Assembly (NCBI GenBank): GCA_002238415.1
Contig: MPMI01000006.1
Coordinates: 1 to 64,000, forward strand
From: Desulfurellaceae bacterium bin18
GTDB lineage: Bacteria > Desulfobacterota > Binatia > Bin18
DNA length: 64,000 bases
Direction of reading: 5' to 3'
Shown: positions 3,761 to 13,347 of the stretch, one piece after another
How the letters are laid out: each line of letters opens with the position of its first letter
How positions within the stretch are numbered: the stretch's first letter is position 1
The notes under the pieces: model-generated
Databases searched by the model: none
What the model was told of the DNA's origin: nothing
Seen by the model: the letters and a program-made list of their open reading frames with translations, nothing else
Program-made: the position numbers and the translations under genes

Positions 3761-4132
3761 ATGGAAAGCAAGAGCGAAGAAAAACTGTCAGGCCTAGCAG
3801 CAGCGCGACTCCTCCCCCAGCAATTCCGGGACCTTGCCCCATTCCTTGAATGGGCCTTGGCAACGGAGCCTGAGCGGAGTGCGAAGCGTCAGGCCAGCCC
3901 GATGGAAGAAATCAACGCGTTTTATCAAGCCATATTCTCGCGGATGAAAGACATTCTGCCGTTTTTGGACCAGTTTACAGCTGAGAATGCTCCGGATGAT
4001 GTGCGGCGCTTATTCCATCTCACCCTCTCCTTGGCCGAAGTCGCCCCGGCGGTTGAAAATTACGGGCAGCCAAGTGTTGTTGATGGGTATGATGTCACCC
4101 GCTTTGTCGAAAATCACGAACAATCAAAATAA
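3761..4132 (+). CDS. Small helical protein paired with Rieske oxygenase (copy 1)
   Basis: A 123-residue soluble protein that I cannot assign to a named family. It begins after GAGAGGGGGCC and lies 29 bases before a Rieske oxygenase gene. It is clearly paralogous to the protein at 5381: both share a central FLEW/YLEW and LAT motif, an AKRQASPM / IKRQTSPM segment, and an LTLSLAxxAPAVExYG block. The sequence predicts mostly amphipathic helices with no cysteines, no signal peptide and no membrane segment. Both copies precede a Rieske alpha subunit, so an accessory, small-subunit or electron-transfer-docking role is likely, but this is inference. The 280-base spacer upstream holds a TATGAT hexamer at 3655-3660 as a possible -10 box. 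Confidence 0.8.
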   Translation: MESKSEEKLSGLAAARLLPQQFRDLAPFLEWALATEPERSAKRQASPMEEINAFYQAIFSRMKDILPFLDQFTAENAPDDVRRLFHLTLSLAEVAPAVENYGQPSVVDGYDVTRFVENHEQSK

Positions 4133-4161
4133 GGAAGGGCATCGCCAGAGGAGGGAAACAC

Positions 4162-5388
4162 ATGGCGCTGGGGAAAAACAAATGGCACGACCGTTATCCG
4201 GAGCTCGGGACTGGCCCCATCCCGGTCGAGCCGTATGTCTCACCAGAATATTTTGAGCAAGAACGCGCCCGGGTCTTTCGCAAAACATGGCTCAATATCG
4301 GCCGGGTCGAGCAGATTCCTCAGCCTGGGGATTATTTTGTCAAAGACCTTACCATCTGTAACACCTCGATTCTGGTTGTTCGTGGCAAGGATGGTGAGGT
4401 CCACGCGTTCCATAACATGTGCTCGCACCGCGGCAATCAACTGGTGTGGGACACCAAGGGCAGGTGCCAGACTTTTTCATGCAAGTTCCACGGCTGGACA
4501 TACGCCCTGGATGGCTCGCTCCGCTACATCACGGATGAACATAATTTCTTTGGTCTCAAGAAAGAAACGCTCGGTATGACACCGGTTGCGGTTGGTACCT
4601 GGGAGGGTTTCATCTTTATCAATGTGGACCCTGACCCTCAACAGACCTTGCCGGAGTACTTGGGGGAAGGACTGCGCACAAGCATCAAAGGCTATCCCTT
4701 TGAGGACCTCTCGACCAACTGTTTTTCCTGGCACACGGACGTGCAGGCCAACTGGAAGGTCGCCAAAGACGCCTTCCAGGAAGTGTATCACATCTCCACC
4801 CTGCACCGCCGCATCATTGGGGATGTGTATGCGAGCAAAGCCAATCCGTATGCGAATGCGCTCAACTTTACCCTTTATCCTCCGCATGGCCGGGTGTCGC
4901 TGTCCGCAAACCCGGACCGGAAACTCACCGGTGTTGAGTCCATAGTACAGGGGTTTGGCTCGACGGTGCTGCAACAGAATAACAGCGCTTCGGAGAAGCT
5001 ACCCGCAGGTGTGAACCCTACGGGGTATCCGCACTGGTCCTTCGATGGCTTGGCGCTGTTTCCGAACTGCCTTATCTATGTGTCAAAGGGAACGTATCTG
5101 ACCCATATTTTTTGGCCTATAACGGAAAATCTGACACGCTGGGAAATTCGGACCTATTCACCCCAAGCGGAAACGCTCTCGGGCCGATTCAGCCAGGAAT
5201 ACGGGAAGGTTTCCTTCCGTGACACCTTGTTAGAAGATGCCAGTACGCTGGAGCGCACCCAAACAATGCTGAGGTCGGGCGCGAAGAAGGAAATCGTTCT
5301 GCAAGACGAAGAGCTCCTCATCCGCCAGCATCATAAAGTGACGGAAAGTTTTTTGAACGCATCGAAAGGGAGCCAGCCGAATGTCTGA
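4162..5388 (+). CDS. Rieske non-heme iron oxygenase, alpha subunit (copy 1)
   Basis: A 408-residue aromatic-ring-hydroxylating type oxygenase. The Rieske [2Fe-2S] ligands are C87, H89, C107 and H110 (CxH, 17 residues, CxxH). The catalytic domain has the mononuclear iron motif with D203, E207, H210 and H215 in NWKVAKDAFQEVYH and the following LH. Enzymes of this kind insert O2 into aromatic, alicyclic or amine substrates using electrons from a reductase, but no ferredoxin or reductase gene is adjacent. The stop overlaps the next gene by eight bases, so translation is probably coupled. About 60% of residues match the second oxygenase at 5749, which points to an old tandem duplication. Confidence 0.92.
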   Translation: MALGKNKWHDRYPELGTGPIPVEPYVSPEYFEQERARVFRKTWLNIGRVEQIPQPGDYFVKDLTICNTSILVVRGKDGEVHAFHNMCSHRGNQLVWDTKGRCQTFSCKFHGWTYALDGSLRYITDEHNFFGLKKETLGMTPVAVGTWEGFIFINVDPDPQQTLPEYLGEGLRTSIKGYPFEDLSTNCFSWHTDVQANWKVAKDAFQEVYHISTLHRRIIGDVYASKANPYANALNFTLYPPHGRVSLSANPDRKLTGVESIVQGFGSTVLQQNNSASEKLPAGVNPTGYPHWSFDGLALFPNCLIYVSKGTYLTHIFWPITENLTRWEIRTYSPQAETLSGRFSQEYGKVSFRDTLLEDASTLERTQTMLRSGAKKEIVLQDEELLIRQHHKVTESFLNASKGSQPNV

Positions 5389-5719
5389 GCGTCAACTGCC
5401 GGAGGGGTTTCAGGATCTTGAGCCATATCTTGAATGGTCTTTGGCCACGGACCGTGAGCGCAGTATCAAACGCCAGACGAGTCCGATGACCAAGATCACT
5501 GCCTTTTATCACGCCATTGTGCCGCGTATGGATGAAATCCTGGCCCATTTAGAGCAGTATCCGTTGGAGCAGGTCCCGGCCGATGCGCAAAGCCTGTTCT
5601 ATCTCACTCTGTCGTTAGCCAAGATTGCTCCGGCGGTTGAAATGTATGGCGAACCTGTGCCTGAGGGGCTGGATGCATTACGACTTGAGAACATTGATAT
5701 CTATCCGACCCGAGGCTGA
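5381..5719 (+). CDS. Small helical protein paired with Rieske oxygenase (copy 2)
   Basis: A 112-residue paralogue of the protein at 3761, starting inside the last codons of the first Rieske gene and ending 29 bases before the second. The shared blocks are DLEPYLEWSLATDRERS, RQTSPM and LTLSLAKIAPAVEMYGEPV. There are no cysteines and no export signal. Order and spacing match the first copy, so the duplicated unit is the gene pair rather than the oxygenase alone. The function is unknown; a partner or regulator of the adjacent oxygenase is the simplest reading. Confidence 0.8.
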   Translation: MSERQLPEGFQDLEPYLEWSLATDRERSIKRQTSPMTKITAFYHAIVPRMDEILAHLEQYPLEQVPADAQSLFYLTLSLAKIAPAVEMYGEPVPEGLDALRLENIDIYPTRG

Positions 5720-5748
5720 GCACGGGCAAAGAAAAGGAGGGCAAGGGT

Positions 5749-6966
5749 ATGCCCACACAGACCAACGGAGCCACTGACGGAAAATGGCACGCGCGGTATC
5801 CTGAGTTGGGAACTGGACCGGTCCCCATCGAACCCTACATCTCACCCGAGTATTTCGAGAAAGAGCGCGAGTACATTTTTCGGAAAGTCTGGCTCAATGT
5901 AGGCCGAGTGGAACAGATTCCCGAGCCCGGCGACTATTTTGTGAAAGACTTGGCCGTGTGTCGGACCTCGATCATCATTGTCCGTGGTCACGATGGCCGG
6001 GTGCACGCCTTTCACAATATGTGCTCGCACCGCGGCAATCCGGTCGTGTGGAATGCAAAGGGCGCGTGCAAGATGTTCACCTGCCGCTACCACAGTTGGA
6101 CGTATGGGCTGGATGGTGCTTTGCGACATATCCCGGACGAAAAAAATTTCTATGGCATCAAGAAGGACGCCTATGGACTGACGCCGGTTGCCGTTGATAC
6201 CTGGGAGGGATTTATTTTTATTAATGTCGATCCACGCCCAAAAGAGACCCTGCGCGAATATCTCGGAGCAGTGGGGGAAAGTTTTGAGGGCTATCCGTTT
6301 GCGGAGATGGCAACCGGCTGCTCGACCTGGGAGATCGACGTGAATGCCAATTGGAAGGTGTGTAAAGATGCCTTCCAAGAGGTCTACCATATCTTCAGTC
6401 TGCATCACAAAAGTACGGGAGCGGCGTTTGCCAGCACGTCCAATCCGTATTTGAATGTACATGAACTGGCGCTGTTTGGCCCGCACGCACGCATATCGGT
6501 CCCGGCCAATCTCGACTGGACACCCACCCCAGTTGAAGCCTTGGCAAGGCGATATGGCATGCTGGCCCTGCAAAAACAGGGCAGCTCCTCACAGGGCATG
6601 CCTGCTGGGGTGAATCCAACCGGTTCCCCGGACTGGTCGTTCTCGGGATTGATCTATTTCCCCAATATGTGTCTCTTTGTTGCGGACGGCGGGATTATCA
6701 TGCACACCATGTGGCCCTTGTCGGAAAACCGTACCCACTGGGAAGCCCGGACCTATTTCCCGAAAGCGAAAACGCTGGCGCACAAGTTCAGCCAGGAGTA
6801 CAGCCGGGCCACGTTCGTCGACGGAGTACTGGTCGAGGATGGAGGGACGTTTGAGAAAACGCAGTCCATGCTGGCTTCAGGAGCAAAGAAACACGTCATC
6901 CTGGGAGATGAAGAGCTGCTCATCCGTCACCATCACAAGGTGACAGAACAGTTCTTTAACGCGTAG
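5749..6966 (+). CDS. Rieske non-heme iron oxygenase, alpha subunit (copy 2)
   Basis: A 405-residue Rieske oxygenase with all recognisable metal ligands: C92, H94, C112 and H115 for the [2Fe-2S] cluster, and D207, E211, H214 and H219 around the catalytic iron. A GGAGG ribosome site precedes ATG 5749. Both tandem oxygenases look catalytically complete, so they may act on successive substrates, have different substrate ranges, or form a mixed oligomer. The amidohydrolase follows 31 bases later, consistent with an operon for an oxygenation and ring-cleavage or decarboxylation pathway. The substrate cannot be inferred. Confidence 0.92.
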   Translation: MPTQTNGATDGKWHARYPELGTGPVPIEPYISPEYFEKEREYIFRKVWLNVGRVEQIPEPGDYFVKDLAVCRTSIIIVRGHDGRVHAFHNMCSHRGNPVVWNAKGACKMFTCRYHSWTYGLDGALRHIPDEKNFYGIKKDAYGLTPVAVDTWEGFIFINVDPRPKETLREYLGAVGESFEGYPFAEMATGCSTWEIDVNANWKVCKDAFQEVYHIFSLHHKSTGAAFASTSNPYLNVHELALFGPHARISVPANLDWTPTPVEALARRYGMLALQKQGSSSQGMPAGVNPTGSPDWSFSGLIYFPNMCLFVADGGIIMHTMWPLSENRTHWEARTYFPKAKTLAHKFSQEYSRATFVDGVLVEDGGTFEKTQSMLASGAKKHVILGDEELLIRHHHKVTEQFFNA

Positions 6967-6997
6967 CTTCGCTATCGCAGCAAAAAGGAGGACTGCC

Positions 6998-8125
6998 ATG
7001 AGTCGTACATACAATATTATTGACGCGGATGGTCACGTGTTAGAACCACCCGACTTTTGGCAAGACTACATTGACCCAGCCTACCGTGACCGCGCACCGC
7101 AACTCTTCGTCGATACCGACGGACAAGAGCGGTTGCGCATAGAAGGCAAGGTGCTGGGTGGTCCCAAGGGGTTAGGATTTGCTGGTGCCATCGGTGCTCG
7201 ACAGGGAGCGGCTCCGACCGACATCCGCTACATCGAGGGAAGGAAGGGGGGCTTTGATCCCCACGCGCGTATCCCGGACATGGAAATCGACAGCATTGAT
7301 GCGGCAGTTCTCTATCCCACCATTGGTCTGTTCTGTGGAGCGGCGAGTGACCCGCTATTGTCTGCCGCGCTGTGTCGCGCCTACAACCGCTGGCTGGCGG
7401 ATTACTGCAAGCCGTATCCGGATCGCCTGTTTGGCGCGGCGATGGTGCCGTTGCAGTCGGCAGAGCTAGCAATCGCCGAGATGCGCTATGCCCGCAAGGA
7501 ACTCGGCATGCGGAGTGGCTTTGTCCGCCCCGATCCCTATCTTGGCCGTTCGCTTGACCATCCGGACTACGAACCGTTCTGGGCCGAGGCGCAAGAACTC
7601 GACTTTGCTATTGGTCTGCACGAAGGCACCGGTGTCCATGAAGGGCCTGGGGCGATGCCAGCGATGGGCGTTGATCGCGTAAAGAGTCATGGCGCGAAAC
7701 ATATTGTGTCGCACACCATGGAGATGATGATCGGCTGCTTGAGCGTGATCTGGGGTGGTGTCTGCGAGCGCTTCCCGAAAGTACGGATTGCCTTTCTCGA
7801 GTCGGGTGGAGGCTGGATTGCCGGGTGGTTGGACCGCATGGATCGCCACTTTCAAGACGGTGACGTGTTCGACGACTCCGGGCTGCGGATGAAACCGAGC
7901 GAGTATTTCCAGCGACAGTGCTGGATTTCTTTTGAGCCAGTTGAGAGAAGCCTTCCGTATCTTGCTGAATATCTGGGGCCAAACAAGATACTCTGGGCCA
8001 CTGATTATCCGCATCCTGATGGGTTCTTCCCCGGTGCTCCTGCCATGATTGCGGAGAGACTACCTGAGAAAATCAGGCGGCAGGTTCTGGCCGAAAGCGC
8101 CATCCAGTTTTATAAACTGATTTGA
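6998..8125 (+). CDS. Amidohydrolase family 2 (metal-dependent hydrolase/decarboxylase)
   Basis: A 375-residue TIM-barrel amidohydrolase of the ACMSD-like (amidohydrolase 2) family. It opens with IIDADGHVLEPPDFW, the usual first metal-binding strand, and has FVRPDPYLGR, GLHEGTG and WATDYPHPDG, the last being the conserved C-terminal aspartate/histidine motif. Family members hydrolyse or decarboxylate cyclic and aromatic acids. AAGGAGG stands upstream of ATG 6998, and the gene closes the Rieske operon. It probably acts on the product of one of the oxygenases; that link rests on gene order only. Confidence 0.88.
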   Translation: MSRTYNIIDADGHVLEPPDFWQDYIDPAYRDRAPQLFVDTDGQERLRIEGKVLGGPKGLGFAGAIGARQGAAPTDIRYIEGRKGGFDPHARIPDMEIDSIDAAVLYPTIGLFCGAASDPLLSAALCRAYNRWLADYCKPYPDRLFGAAMVPLQSAELAIAEMRYARKELGMRSGFVRPDPYLGRSLDHPDYEPFWAEAQELDFAIGLHEGTGVHEGPGAMPAMGVDRVKSHGAKHIVSHTMEMMIGCLSVIWGGVCERFPKVRIAFLESGGGWIAGWLDRMDRHFQDGDVFDDSGLRMKPSEYFQRQCWISFEPVERSLPYLAEYLGPNKILWATDYPHPDGFFPGAPAMIAERLPEKIRRQVLAESAIQFYKLI

Positions 8126-8286: not shown

Positions 8287-9861
8287 TTACTTCAGCCGGT
8301 TCACATCGTCCGGGTTGATCAGGTCCGGGACGGTCCAGCCGTCGATATCGTATTCCTCCATACACTGCTCGACAAATGCCTTGAGCTGATCCGCGCGGCC
8401 CATGGCCACGGCCGCCGGCAGGTTTTCGAGTTTGATGTTTTCATAGTTGCCAGCATAGTTGCGCTCGTACAGTTCGTGCCGTCCGCCAAACTCGGTCCCG
8501 ACGGCATCCCACAGAATCTTGAGCAGCTTGACGCGCTCCAGCGCATCGTAATCGTTGGAGCCGCGTAAATATTTCTCAAGATAGGGCCGCAGCTCCGGCG
8601 TTTTGAAATCTTTCACATGTGAGTTGAGATAGATCAGGCCGCTTGAAATGGTTTGCTCGATAATCTCTTTGATACGGGGGTAGGCAACCGGGGCCAGGAC
8701 GCGGTAGGCCAGGCCGTATTCCGTGTTGGGCTGGAGGGCACCGTTGACCCATTGGTCGGGGGTCTTGGTCATGGCCTCGGTCAGACCCCAAAACATATGC
8801 CGCCAGGCCAGCACCTCACCGACCTGCACCTGGGCGCTGCGCTGGTCCTGTATGCCAACCGCCTCTATGGCTTTCAGCAAGACCCCGGCCAGAAAGTCCA
8901 GCTTGACCGCGAAACGGGTGCAGCCATGCAGGGTAAAGCGCGGGATAAAACCCGAGCCGGGGAAAAAGGTGTTGGCCTTATCCAGGTCGCGGTAGACAAA
9001 CAGATTCTCCCAGGGGATGAGGACTTTATCCAACACCAGAATGGCATCGTTCTCATCCAGGCGGGAAGACAGCGGATAGTCGAACGGACTGCCCAGGGTG
9101 GCAGCGTGCAATTCATACGACGGACGACAGATCAGCTTCACGCCGGCACTCTGCATGGGAATCATGGCAAACAGCGCCATCTCGGGTTTGCCCAGAGGCG
9201 TCGGCCCGTAAAAGCCGATGAAATTATGATGCGTCAGGGCGGAGCCGGTCGCGACCACCTTGGCGCCGCTGACTATGACCCCCGCGTCGGTTTCTTTTTC
9301 CACCCGCACATAGACATCGTTGACGTCATCCGGAGATTTGGTCTTATCAACCGGCGGGTTCACCAGGGCGTGGTTGAGAAACAGGCAGCGCTCCTGAGTG
9401 TCACGATACCAGCGTAAGGCATTGTCCTGATAGGGCGCATAGAACTCGGCGTTGGCGCCCAGGGTGCCGGTCAGGCTGGCCTTGTAGTCCGGCGAGCGTC
9501 CCATCCAGCCGTAGGAGATGCGAGCCCACTCGGCAATGGCGTCCCGGCTGCCGACCAGATCCTCCGTGCTCTTCGGTACCTTGTAAAACTTATGCGTGAA
9601 CCCGCCATTCCCGGTATCTGTCGGCGTGCTGAGCGTCGGTGCTTTCTGCGGGTCGTGCAGCGCGTCATACATGCGCGCCAGCATGCGGGCGGAATTCCGA
9701 AAGGCCGGGTGCTGAGTGACGTCTTTGACGCGCTCGCCATAGATCCAGACCTCTCGGTCGTCCCGCAGGCTGTCAAGGAATTCCTGGCCGGTCAGGGGTC
9801 GTTGTCCGGGCTCGCCGTCGGTGTGCGACCTCGGGTCGGTGGCCGGTGTCTGTTGACTCAT
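8287..9861 (-). CDS. 4-hydroxyphenylacetate 3-monooxygenase-type flavin-dependent hydroxylase (HpaB family)
   Basis: A 524-residue protein matching the HpaB family, which uses FADH2 from a separate reductase to ortho-hydroxylate phenols. It shows the N-terminal [20 protein letters not shown] signature, a DKTKSPDDV segment and the [20 protein letters not shown] region of the flavin site. ATG 9861 was chosen because GGAGGACAG precedes it; the frame is open to 9954 without good support. No HpaC-type reductase is nearby. It follows the acyl-CoA carboxylase gene on the same strand with a 93-base gap, so cotranscription is possible. Some family members instead act on CoA esters (4-hydroxybutyryl-CoA dehydratase), but no iron-sulfur cysteine set was recognised. 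Confidence 0.85.
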
Positions 9862-9954
9862 AGTCTGTCCTCCACGCTCACCTGCTGCGGTCTGCTTCTG
9901 TCTATAGGGCGGACCGGGCTTCGGCAAGTTCGAGCGGGGTGGCTGCCCAGCCAC

Positions 9955-12900
9955 CTATGGCCGAAACTGCAAGGCCCTGGGCACGAGTCGCGTCGGCTGA
10001 GCCACCACCTGATAGGCGGTTTCCACCCATTCACAGATATAGCGACGGGTATCCCTGGGGTCGATCATTTCTTCGATCTGGAATTTGTTCAACGGGCCGA
10101 GCGGTCCCCGGACGCTCTCGATACGGGCGTTGAGTTCCGCACGGAAGGCGACTGGATCGTCCGCTTCTGCCAACTGCCGTTTATAGGCCGCTTCGATGCC
10201 GCCTTCGGGTGGAATCCCGCCGACATCCGCAGCCGGCCAGGTGACACGCATCGAGGGTTCTGAGCGCGGGGTGGCATAATTATTCCCGGCAACGCCAAAG
10301 CTGCGGCGCATCAGAACGGTAAAGATGGGGACACGGACCTGGGCGAAGGCAATCATCCATTCTGCCCCTTTGCGAATCGTGCCCGTTTTCTCGTGCTCCA
10401 GGCCGACCGCGAAGCCAGGGTTATCGACCAGGTTCAAGAGCGGCAGATGAAACAGATCGCACAAATCCAGGTGGCGCGTCAGCTTGTCGCAGCCGTCGGC
10501 GGTGAGCGCGCCGCCGTTGGCATGCTGGCTGTCAGAAGCAATCACCCCCAGAGGATAACCGTTGAACCGCACGAACCCGGTCACCTGATCGGTCCCCCAC
10601 AAGGGACCGATCTCAAAAAAAGAATCCCGGTCGGCCATTAACCTGATGGCCTGCCGAATGTCAAAGGTCGTGGTGCGTTTTCTGGCAATGAGGGTCGCCA
10701 GTTCCTCTTCACGCCGGTCAATCGGATCATTCGCGCTGGCCGCGTGTACGGGCGGAACCTCGTATACGCTGGAGGGCAGATAGGACAGAAACGTCCGGGT
10801 CATCTCCATGGCTTCTTCTTCGGATTCTGCCAGATTGTCTACCGCACCATTCGTACAGTGAATATGCCAGCCGCCGAGTTCCTCCTTGGTGATATCGTAG
10901 CCCATGGCATGTGAGACAACCGGCGGTCCGGCGACAAAGAGTTGGGCGATATCACGCACCATGACCGAGAAGTGGCCCAGGACGGCCTTGGCCGCGCCAA
11001 TGCCGACCACGCTGCCGAGCAACAGATTGACCACCGGTGTGGTCGCGAGTTGCTCGGCGTACATGCTGCTGCCCAGGTGTCCGGGTAGATACGATCCGCC
11101 CCCACCTGCCACCCGCGGCCTGCCGGCTTTGATGGCGCCCGCGCTTTCCTTGGCGCTGCTCTCCCCCTCTTTTTTCTGGGCTGGCACCATAGCTGCAACA
11201 CTGCCCCCACCGGACGAGCCGTCCAGCAGCCGTATCGAGGGCAGACGCATTTCCGTTGCCAGACGGTCCAGATAGCCGCTCTTTGCAGCGATCGCCCCAT
11301 CGGCATGGCCTCCCCGAGACGTGAAATCATCGGCGCATACCACGACACCCCGCCGGTCTATTTTCCCCCAGCCACCAACACTGTTTGCCGGGGTAAACCC
11401 CACGATGGCCCCATCTTCATCATAGGACGCAAAACCCGCGACACTGCCGACCTCCCGAAAGGAGCCCTCGTCCAGCAACAGCTCAACCCGCTCCCGGCAG
11501 GTCAGCTTGCCGCGAGAGCGTTGGCGCACCACGCCGGGGTCGTCGGAGCCGGGCTCCAAGCGCTGTTTGGCAAATTTCCGGAGGAGCGCGACCTCTTCCA
11601 GTACGGCCTTCCAGGGCTGTGTACTCTCTTTCGCTTGAGGGGTAACGGCGTGCGACGGAGACACGACCGCCACCACCTGTCCTGCGGCGACGGTGTCCCC
11701 GGCCTGGAGCGGTTGCAGTGCCGCTATGACACCGGCACATCCTGCCGTGACCAGGGTTTCCATCTTCATGGCACTCACGACCAGCAGCGTGTCACCGGGC
11801 GACACGGTGTCGCCCACACCCACACTGACCTCCACCACAGAACTCTCCAGTGGGCAGTGCACGGATTCCTGGCCCTCGGCCACCTCCAGGGCTGGCAGGC
11901 GTGCAGTCGGCACGGCAACCGGTCCCGGAGCCGTCATGCCCAGCCTGGCAGCCTGCTGCTCCAGCAAGGCAAGAGCGCTGCCTTCCGCCGCGGAGAAAGA
12001 CGCGGAGCTCAACTCCGGGGTCTCTGCCAATAATGATGTTCTGGCATCGCCGGCCCGAACGGACGGATGGGCGAGGATGGCGCGCAGTTGGTGCAAATTG
12101 GTGCGCAGACCACCAAGATGGAACTCATCCAGCGTCTGCCGCGTGCGTGTCATTGCGGCGGCGTAAGAACCGGCCGTGCAGATGAGTTTCGCCAGCAAGG
12201 GGTCGAACTGCGGCGGTGGGGCATAGCCCAGATAGCCACACCCATCCACCCGGATGCCCGCGCCCGAGGGTTCCTTATAGGCCGTAATACTCCCCGTACT
12301 CGCGGCAACGACACGGGCCTGCACGGCAAAACTGCGCGGCCGGCCGACTGTCTGCTGGTCACTCAGACCGAGCGAGGCGAGCGTTTCACCCGCGGCGATA
12401 CGAAACTGGGCCTCGACAAGGTCAATACCGGTGACCTGTTCGGTGACCGTATGCTCAACCTGAATCCGCGGATTACATTCAATAAAAAAATACTCGCCGG
12501 TCTCGGGCGAGACCAGGAACTCGACTGTACCGGCATTCGCATACGAGGCGGCCTTCACCAGGGTGATCGCAGCGGTAAGCATCTGCTCTCGCAGGGCGGG
12601 GTCCAGCCCCGGAGCGGGGGCCACCTCGACGACCTTCTGGTGGCGCAATTGGACCGAACAGTCGCGTTCGTGCAGATGGACCACATTGCCGGATGAATCC
12701 GCCAGAATTTGGACTTCGATGTGCCTGGGCCGGGCGATCAGCCTTTCGAGAAAGACGGCTCCGTCACCGAATGCGGCCTGGGCTTCGCTGCAACAGCGCT
12801 CAAATGCCTCAGTCATCTGCTCGGCTCTCTCGACGACCCGCATACCGCGCCCCCCACCCCCGGCTGCGGCCTTGAGCATCACCGGATATCCAAGATCGTG

Positions 12901-13347
12901 GGCCAGCTTTTCTGCTTCCCGCGCTGACTCGATGGGTTTGGCGCTACCGGGGACAACGGGAATGTCCAGCGACTCGGCAAGCGTCCGCGCTCTGACTTTA
13001 TCGCCGAATAAGGCCAGCGTTTCCGGCGACGGACCGATAAACGCGACTCCCTCGGCGGCGCACAACGCAGCAAAAGGGGCGTTTTCGGACAAGAAACCAT
13101 AGCCGGGGTGCAGACAGTCACACCCGCGTGATTTGGCGGTCTGGACGAGCATGTCCGCGTTTAAATATGCCGCAACAGCGTCCGCCGCCGTACCGATCTC
13201 ATGACTTTCCGTCATACAGCGGGTATGTAGCGAAAGCGCATCAATAGCCGGATACACCCCGACCGATTCCAGGCCCAAGGCCGTTGCCGATTTAGCAATG
13301 CGAATGGCGATTTCGCCACGGTTAGCGATCAAGACACGTGTATGCAC
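9955..13347 (-). CDS. Single-chain biotin-dependent acyl-CoA carboxylase
   Basis: A 1130-residue fusion carrying all carboxylase activities. The N-terminal biotin carboxylase (about 1-445) has ANRGEIAIRI, the glycine-rich ATP loop GGGGRGMRV and ECNPRIQVEHTVTE. The biotin carrier domain has the lysine in AMKMET at residue 528. The C-terminal carboxyltransferase (about 590-1130) is of the PccB type, with KLTCRERVELLLDEGSF and FVRFNGYPLGVIASD. This order matches the single-chain long-chain acyl-CoA carboxylases known from mycobacteria and some proteobacteria, rather than the usual separate alpha and beta subunits. A Ser/Lys/Gly-rich insertion (KKEGESSAKESAGAIKAG) lies in the carboxyltransferase half. 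The product would be a malonyl-, methylmalonyl- or longer dicarboxylic-CoA. Confidence 0.9.
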   Translation of the reverse strand: MHTRVLIANRGEIAIRIAKSATALGLESVGVYPAIDALSLHTRCMTESHEIGTAADAVAAYLNADMLVQTAKSRGCDCLHPGYGFLSENAPFAALCAAEGVAFIGPSPETLALFGDKVRARTLAESLDIPVVPGSAKPIESAREAEKLAHDLGYPVMLKAAAGGGGRGMRVVERAEQMTEAFERCCSEAQAAFGDGAVFLERLIARPRHIEVQILADSSGNVVHLHERDCSVQLRHQKVVEVAPAPGLDPALREQMLTAAITLVKAASYANAGTVEFLVSPETGEYFFIECNPRIQVEHTVTEQVTGIDLVEAQFRIAAGETLASLGLSDQQTVGRPRSFAVQARVVAASTGSITAYKEPSGAGIRVDGCGYLGYAPPPQFDPLLAKLICTAGSYAAAMTRTRQTLDEFHLGGLRTNLHQLRAILAHPSVRAGDARTSLLAETPELSSASFSAAEGSALALLEQQAARLGMTAPGPVAVPTARLPALEVAEGQESVHCPLESSVVEVSVGVGDTVSPGDTLLVVSAMKMETLVTAGCAGVIAALQPLQAGDTVAAGQVVAVVSPSHAVTPQAKESTQPWKAVLEEVALLRKFAKQRLEPGSDDPGVVRQRSRGKLTCRERVELLLDEGSFREVGSVAGFASYDEDGAIVGFTPANSVGGWGKIDRRGVVVCADDFTSRGGHADGAIAAKSGYLDRLATEMRLPSIRLLDGSSGGGSVAAMVPAQKKEGESSAKESAGAIKAGRPRVAGGGGSYLPGHLGSSMYAEQLATTPVVNLLLGSVVGIGAAKAVLGHFSVMVRDIAQLFVAGPPVVSHAMGYDITKEELGGWHIHCTNGAVDNLAESEEEAMEMTRTFLSYLPSSVYEVPPVHAASANDPIDRREEELATLIARKRTTTFDIRQAIRLMADRDSFFEIGPLWGTDQVTGFVRFNGYPLGVIASDSQHANGGALTADGCDKLTRHLDLCDLFHLPLLNLVDNPGFAVGLEHEKTGTIRKGAEWMIAFAQVRVPIFTVLMRRSFGVAGNNYATPRSEPSMRVTWPAADVGGIPPEGGIEAAYKRQLAEADDPVAFRAELNARIESVRGPLGPLNKFQIEEMIDPRDTRRYICEWVETAYQVVAQPTRLVPRALQFRP

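Follow-up and report, generated by a model that had tools for sequence, protein, structure and literature searches.

Two neighboring genes for Rieske non-heme iron oxygenases in a bacterium of the class Candidatus Binatia are each preceded by a gene for a small helical protein. This arrangement raises the question of what such a protein could contribute to a well-known enzyme class. Rieske oxygenases are described as consisting of alpha subunits, or of alpha plus beta subunits, together with a ferredoxin and/or a reductase. The small protein, here called S, would be a new and additional component. The window, meaning the entire stretch of 64,000 nucleotides that was analyzed, belongs to a 5.2 Mb genome assembly.

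A five-gene operon with a repeated module

Reading of the open reading frames gives a five-gene operon at positions 3761-8125, with all genes on the + strand and in the order S1-R1-S2-R2-amidohydrolase. S1 (3761..4132, +; 123 aa) and S2 (5381..5719, +; 112 aa) are small helical members of an undescribed family, and they precede their respective partners R1 (4162..5388, +; 408 aa) and R2 (5749..6966, +; 405 aa), which are Rieske non-heme iron oxygenase alpha subunits. The last gene (6998..8125, +; 375 aa) encodes an Amidohydrolase_2 or COG2159-type enzyme (Pfam PF04909, 1.5e-28).

As the first-pass annotation had reported, the S-R order occurs twice and the small proteins are paralogous. S1 and S2 are 57% identical over 100 aa, and R1 and R2 are 61% identical over 395 aa. 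Measurement also confirmed the reported gap of 29 bases, which separates S1 from R1 and likewise S2 from R2, and the overlap between the two units, where the start of S2 lies within the last 8 bases of R1. The spacing from R2 to the amidohydrolase gene is 31 bases. AG-rich ribosome-binding sites lie upstream of the ATG start codons of R1, S2, R2, and the amidohydrolase gene, and scans for promoters and terminators returned about the number of matches expected by chance. The absence of an adjacent reductase was likewise borne out, because the operon and those immediate neighbors that were examined showed neither a ferredoxin nor a reductase.

Comparison with congeneric orthologs yields dN/dS values of 0.30 for S1, 0.12 for S2, 0.08 for R1, and 0.10 for R2 (range 0.07-0.30), and the values between paralogs are 0.16-0.18. 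These values indicate that S1, S2, R1, and R2 are real proteins under purifying selection and that the duplication is old.

Ordinary-looking oxygenase subunits

In their 2-His-1-carboxylate site, their acidic bridge, and their fold, R1 and R2 look like ordinary alpha subunits of Rieske oxygenases. Both had been annotated as complete enzymes that keep their iron ligands, and both are intact as judged by ligand motifs and by Pfam domains (Rieske, 3.8e-17, and Ring_hydroxyl_A, 3.5e-27, in R1; the same two domains in R2). Among 50 relatives, the Rieske ligands C92, H94, C112, and H115 (R2 numbering) of the C-x-H...C-x2-H motif (PF00355) are invariant, as are H214, H219, and the ED pair (D364) of the iron site in the catalytic domain (PF00848), where the metal-ligand roles were assigned from the known motif of these oxygenases. 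The residue that bridges the Rieske and iron sites is Asp in many enzymes and Glu in those of the CntA type. In the same 50 relatives, the usual Asp is replaced by an invariant Glu (E211) located three residues before H214. The structure model of R2 has a pLDDT of 92.3, and Foldseek matched it to 4quq with an E value of 1.3e-26 and a probability of 1.00. Stachydrine demethylase, TPADO, and CntA rank among the solved structures that fit its fold best, at about 20% identity.

A small protein of an undescribed family

S is a real and widespread protein of which the libraries and open-access papers that were searched give no description. None of the members of a 56-sequence alignment has a meaningful match in Pfam or NCBIfam, S1 and S2 match no PHROGs or PADLOC model, and no significant match to PDB chains was found by sequence. 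A Foldseek search of the PDB and viral libraries returned nothing below E = 1, and no account of an S-type protein was found in open-access papers. The designation of S as a protein of unknown family therefore stands.

The residues P7, F10, W19, R27, R31, and E87 are invariant in the 56-sequence alignment. The S2 model (pLDDT 87.6) predicts four confident helices at residues 11-19, 24-33, 36-57, and 67-89. The C-terminal tail is modeled with a pLDDT of only 62-68 yet is conserved in type, a pattern that is common for segments that become ordered on a partner, as this tail may do.

Several known kinds of small protein were considered and rejected. S1 and S2 have no cysteine, from which the first-pass annotation had concluded that S is not a ferredoxin, and there is no conserved Cys or His ligand in the 56 members. 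A SnoaL/NTF2 beta subunit was dismissed on the basis of the four helices in the model and the lack of any Pfam match above noise among the 56 members. IadE, the small subunit of auxin dioxygenase, is described as a beta subunit, and S matches no PDB chain, the IadD/E structure included. S also does not appear to be a copy of part of the alpha subunit (hhalign probability 0.35%).

These properties bear on the idea of S as an effector, or coupling, protein that would bind transiently to the assembled oxygenase and tune electron entry or oxygen activation. The MmoB and DmpM effectors of diiron multicomponent monooxygenases are proteins of about 100 aa without a cofactor, and there is one per terminal oxygenase. 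The size of S, its lack of cofactors, and its constant pairing with a terminal oxygenase all suit such a role. However, S is predicted to be all-helical and has no significant fold match in the PDB, so it is not homologous to any solved effector. Moreover, Rieske oxygenases are not known to need an effector, and we consider this role quite improbable. The available portion of a review treats only oxygenase subunits and redox partners (PMC12445004).

Linkage to one clade of alpha subunits

If S serves an oxygenase, its homologs should be found near Rieske genes. This is where most of them reside, and the opposite outcome, in which they lie mainly elsewhere, did not occur. Of the 39 S genes in five whole genomes, 38 adjoin an alpha gene of a single clade; conversely, 38 of the 48 clade alphas have an adjacent S, and other alphas have none (Fisher p 1.6e-6 for the window's own genome). 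The window's genome contains 35 genes with a Rieske domain and 10 S genes, and each of the 10 is located beside a Rieske alpha. For four other genomes (G001, G006, G205, and G793), S and alpha genes were searched independently and their coordinates were then compared. There, 28 of 29 S genes adjoin a clade alpha, and S accompanies 28 of 35 alphas in the high-scoring group and 0 of the remaining 39. The genomic association of S with alpha thus exceeds chance.

In 70 loci taken from contigs of genomes and from plasmids, 79 of 83 S matches have an alpha gene on the same strand within 400 bp; the order is R-S for 50 of them and S-R for 29. Further whole-genome loci agree with this linkage, and the exceptions are two plasmid copies, one copy beside SDR genes, one from Myxococcota, and one frameshifted remnant. 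The phenomenon is therefore family-wide rather than confined to one locus, with S usually located downstream from R.

All 15 genomes sampled from the window's family carry S, which is sporadic elsewhere in the class and absent from the 147 other genomes of a phylum sample. With the starting genomes counted in and the groups named from record titles, S also occurs in 2 of 250 Burkholderiales, 8 of 248 Sphingomonadales, and 4 of 91 members of one Myxococcota class. One metagenome contig titled Klebsiella pneumoniae (CAMBFS010000120.1; L075) carries S-R genes that group with those of the window's Binatia family, and its title is probably a mislabel.

Tight linkage on the same strand, with genes that often overlap, would suit a chaperone equally well. 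S could be an assembly factor that binds the nascent or apo alpha subunit, aids its folding, trimerization, or loading with iron or the cluster, and then departs. Its lack of cofactor ligands fits this role as well, and alphas that have no S of their own could use another copy in trans. The specificity suggested by the observations below would go beyond what a chaperone usually needs, and we judge an assembly factor to be rather unlikely.

In the five genomes, 10 of the 48 clade alphas lack an S directly beside them. Three alphas of this kind are conserved across the genus, although they might be served by S in trans. The earlier inference that duplication of the pair makes S necessary for each oxygenase is correct about the duplication and too strong about the necessity. 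One S-less clade alpha (L046, 5593-6942) and its orthologs (L074 and L076-L079) always lie directly upstream of an S-bearing alpha, in the order R-R-S, and the two alphas at these loci may share one S.

Shared history of the two genes

A tree of 123 alphas places all S-linked alphas in one clade and the other alphas of the same genomes outside it. This clade has 106 entries, 95 of them with an adjacent S, and its members come from Binatia, Pseudomonadota, Myxococcota, and Actinomycetota. Gene order, either S-R or R-S, requires at least 5-6 changes on well-supported branches. Because order switched several times among subclades while adjacency persisted, adjacency has been kept through repeated rearrangement.

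The unit in the window's subclade is S followed by R. In other genomes the tail type ‘GYDVxRF’, which is that of S1, goes with R1-type alphas, and the tail type ‘LDxLRLxxxDIYP’, which is that of S2, goes with R2-type alphas. Two loci (L086 and L089) have the module order S2R2-S1R1, the reverse of that in the window, and the S tail type and R type are still matched. Because these blocks are swapped with their types intact, the pair, rather than the oxygenase alone, was duplicated before these genomes diverged. The alpha tree and the swapped modules uphold the original view of the S-R pair as the duplicated unit.

Distances among S proteins and among R proteins are strongly correlated (Mantel r 0.83, with no permutation above 0.14), a result that shared descent alone could give; the correlation among own-genome paralogs only is r 0.56 (p 0.006). 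Inter-protein DCA on 133 pairs gave strong scores that were dominated by a few lineage-marker columns, at an effective number of 75, and they were set aside. Frameshifted or deleted remnants at L134 and L195/L198 retain pieces of both genes, and S and R have decayed together at L134 and L195. S-R is a two-gene module whose parts are inherited, duplicated, and rearranged together.

Two Sphingomonadales genomes carry two different tandem S genes before one Rieske alpha (S-S-R; L187/L196 in G673 and L188/L192 in G671), which suggests that S could act as a heterodimer there. It is these copies, along with the close matching of S types to R types, that point to more specificity than an assembly factor would be expected to show.

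No natural S-R fusion was found. Candidate fusion frames at L172, L179, and L182 were rejected as out-of-frame read-through in G+C-rich DNA, and a 959-aa frame with a Rieske domain at its end (L048), in which no domain is recognizable at the N terminus, is most likely overextended rather than a fusion.

S genes without an oxygenase

The few S genes that have no R nearby comprise IS6100-flanked copies beside EthD on lin plasmids of HCH degraders, one on a Cupriavidus plasmid, a Sphingomonadales copy beside SDR genes, and one Myxococcota copy. On plasmid pSRL1 of Sphingobium indicum B90A (NZ_CP013071.1, 5517-7339; L065), an S gene enclosed by IS6100 copies directly follows linC and an EthD gene, and no Rieske gene lies within 7 kb of it. 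Seven plasmid records from HCH degraders carry this lin-region S.

Such genes, whether accompanied by EthD on lin plasmids or located next to SDR genes, are what would be expected if S were an independent pathway protein, for example one that binds or processes a small molecule and merely shares operons with R. However, R stays while the remaining operon genes change between clades, and within the same genomes S tracks a single alpha clade to the exclusion of all other alphas. Furthermore, because EthD also follows R-S at a locus of the window's genome (L051), the lin-plasmid S may be the broken-off end of an R-S operon. We therefore regard an independent function as quite improbable.

Operon context and possible substrates

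Only R and S are constant, and the other operon genes vary across the clade. FmdA and SnoaL accompany R-S at L049, L067, and L069; cupins, DHOD-type reductases, and SnoaL are present at L066 and L105; and PhyH and a P450 are present at L113 and L126. Glyoxalase genes are present at L045, L046, and L050 and an EthD gene at L051, and HpaB is also among the variable partners. In several cases S occurs in one operon together with a SnoaL beta subunit and/or a ferredoxin. Because some operons carry S besides both, S is neither of them. On an Acinetobacter plasmid (L069) the gene order is alpha, S, NTF2, styrene/indole monooxygenase, flavin reductase, SDR, and ferredoxin.

The nearest solved relatives of the window's amidohydrolase are PtmU3 (1.1e-43) and DitZ (1.9e-30) by phmmer, and genes for HpaB-like, acyl-CoA dehydrogenase, and enoyl-CoA hydratase proteins neighbor the operon. 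These relationships suggest that the operon serves the catabolism of an aromatic or polycyclic acid. Of the two same-genus genomes G001 and G006, only G001 has the amidohydrolase gene beside S-R. Genes resembling HpaB-type 4-hydroxyphenylacetate 3-hydroxylase adjoin S-R twice in the same genome, in the window (8287-9954, -) and at L046 (12134-13576, +). Beside the HpaB-like gene of the window is a gene (9955-13347, -) for a putative 1130-aa acyl-CoA carboxylase with fused biotin carboxylase, carboxyl carrier, and carboxyltransferase-like parts.

A proposed accessory subunit

The findings are consistent with S acting on alpha itself. Of the roles considered, we hold that of a dedicated accessory subunit, one that would bind its cognate alpha in one clade of Rieske oxygenases, to be the most likely, at about even odds. 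The four-helix body of S and its tail, which would become ordered on contact, would bind the alpha subunit, probably with one S for each alpha of a C3 trimer. S would carry no cofactor, and it may stabilize the trimer or shape the place where the ferredoxin or reductase docks. Where a SnoaL/NTF2 beta subunit is present, S would be additional to it, and it may replace the beta subunit in operons without one, such as that of the window. The two modules of the window would then represent two oxygenases with different substrate ranges, each with its own S, and their operon, which also supplies the amidohydrolase, would serve the breakdown of an aromatic or polycyclic compound.

A stronger and more tentative form of this proposal is that S is an obligate, cofactor-free helical ‘gamma’ subunit of a widespread clade, which extends from Binatia to Pseudomonadota and Actinomycetota, and that the oxygenases of this clade neither assemble nor turn over in its absence. 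If so, heterologous expression of clade alphas with only their textbook partners would fail, and S could explain inactive heterologous clade members, including those from skatole/indole and other pollutant clusters. A further dedicated component that has so far been annotated as ‘hypothetical protein’ would change how Rieske oxygenases are annotated, expressed, and engineered.

Comparison with known systems

One described setting is the skatole/indole cluster of Acinetobacter piscicola p38, for which an alpha (gene1684), a monooxygenase (gene1687), and a ferredoxin (gene1690) are listed as induced by skatole (PMC11434297). This numbering fits the order alpha-S-NTF2-SMO-FR-SDR-Fd of L069, an order that would make gene1685 S, and S is probably co-transcribed in this cluster.

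R1 and R2 have their domains, metal-ligand motifs, and fold in common with solved enzymes of the alpha3 or alpha3-beta3 type, including stachydrine demethylase (4quq), TPADO (7q05), CntA (6zgp), and naphthalene dioxygenase, although the best-matching of these are only about 20% identical to them. The SnoaL/NTF2-like beta subunit (PF13577) is also cofactor-free and is encoded directly after alpha, and S could have a similar stabilizing role, but the beta subunit is an alpha/beta cone whereas S is modeled as four helices. Rieske-type and plant-type ferredoxins are small proteins of the same operons, encoded as separate genes, and S lacks their Cys and His ligands. MmoB and DmpM resemble S in size, in the absence of a cofactor, and in their number per oxygenase, but they belong to a different enzyme class and have a different fold.
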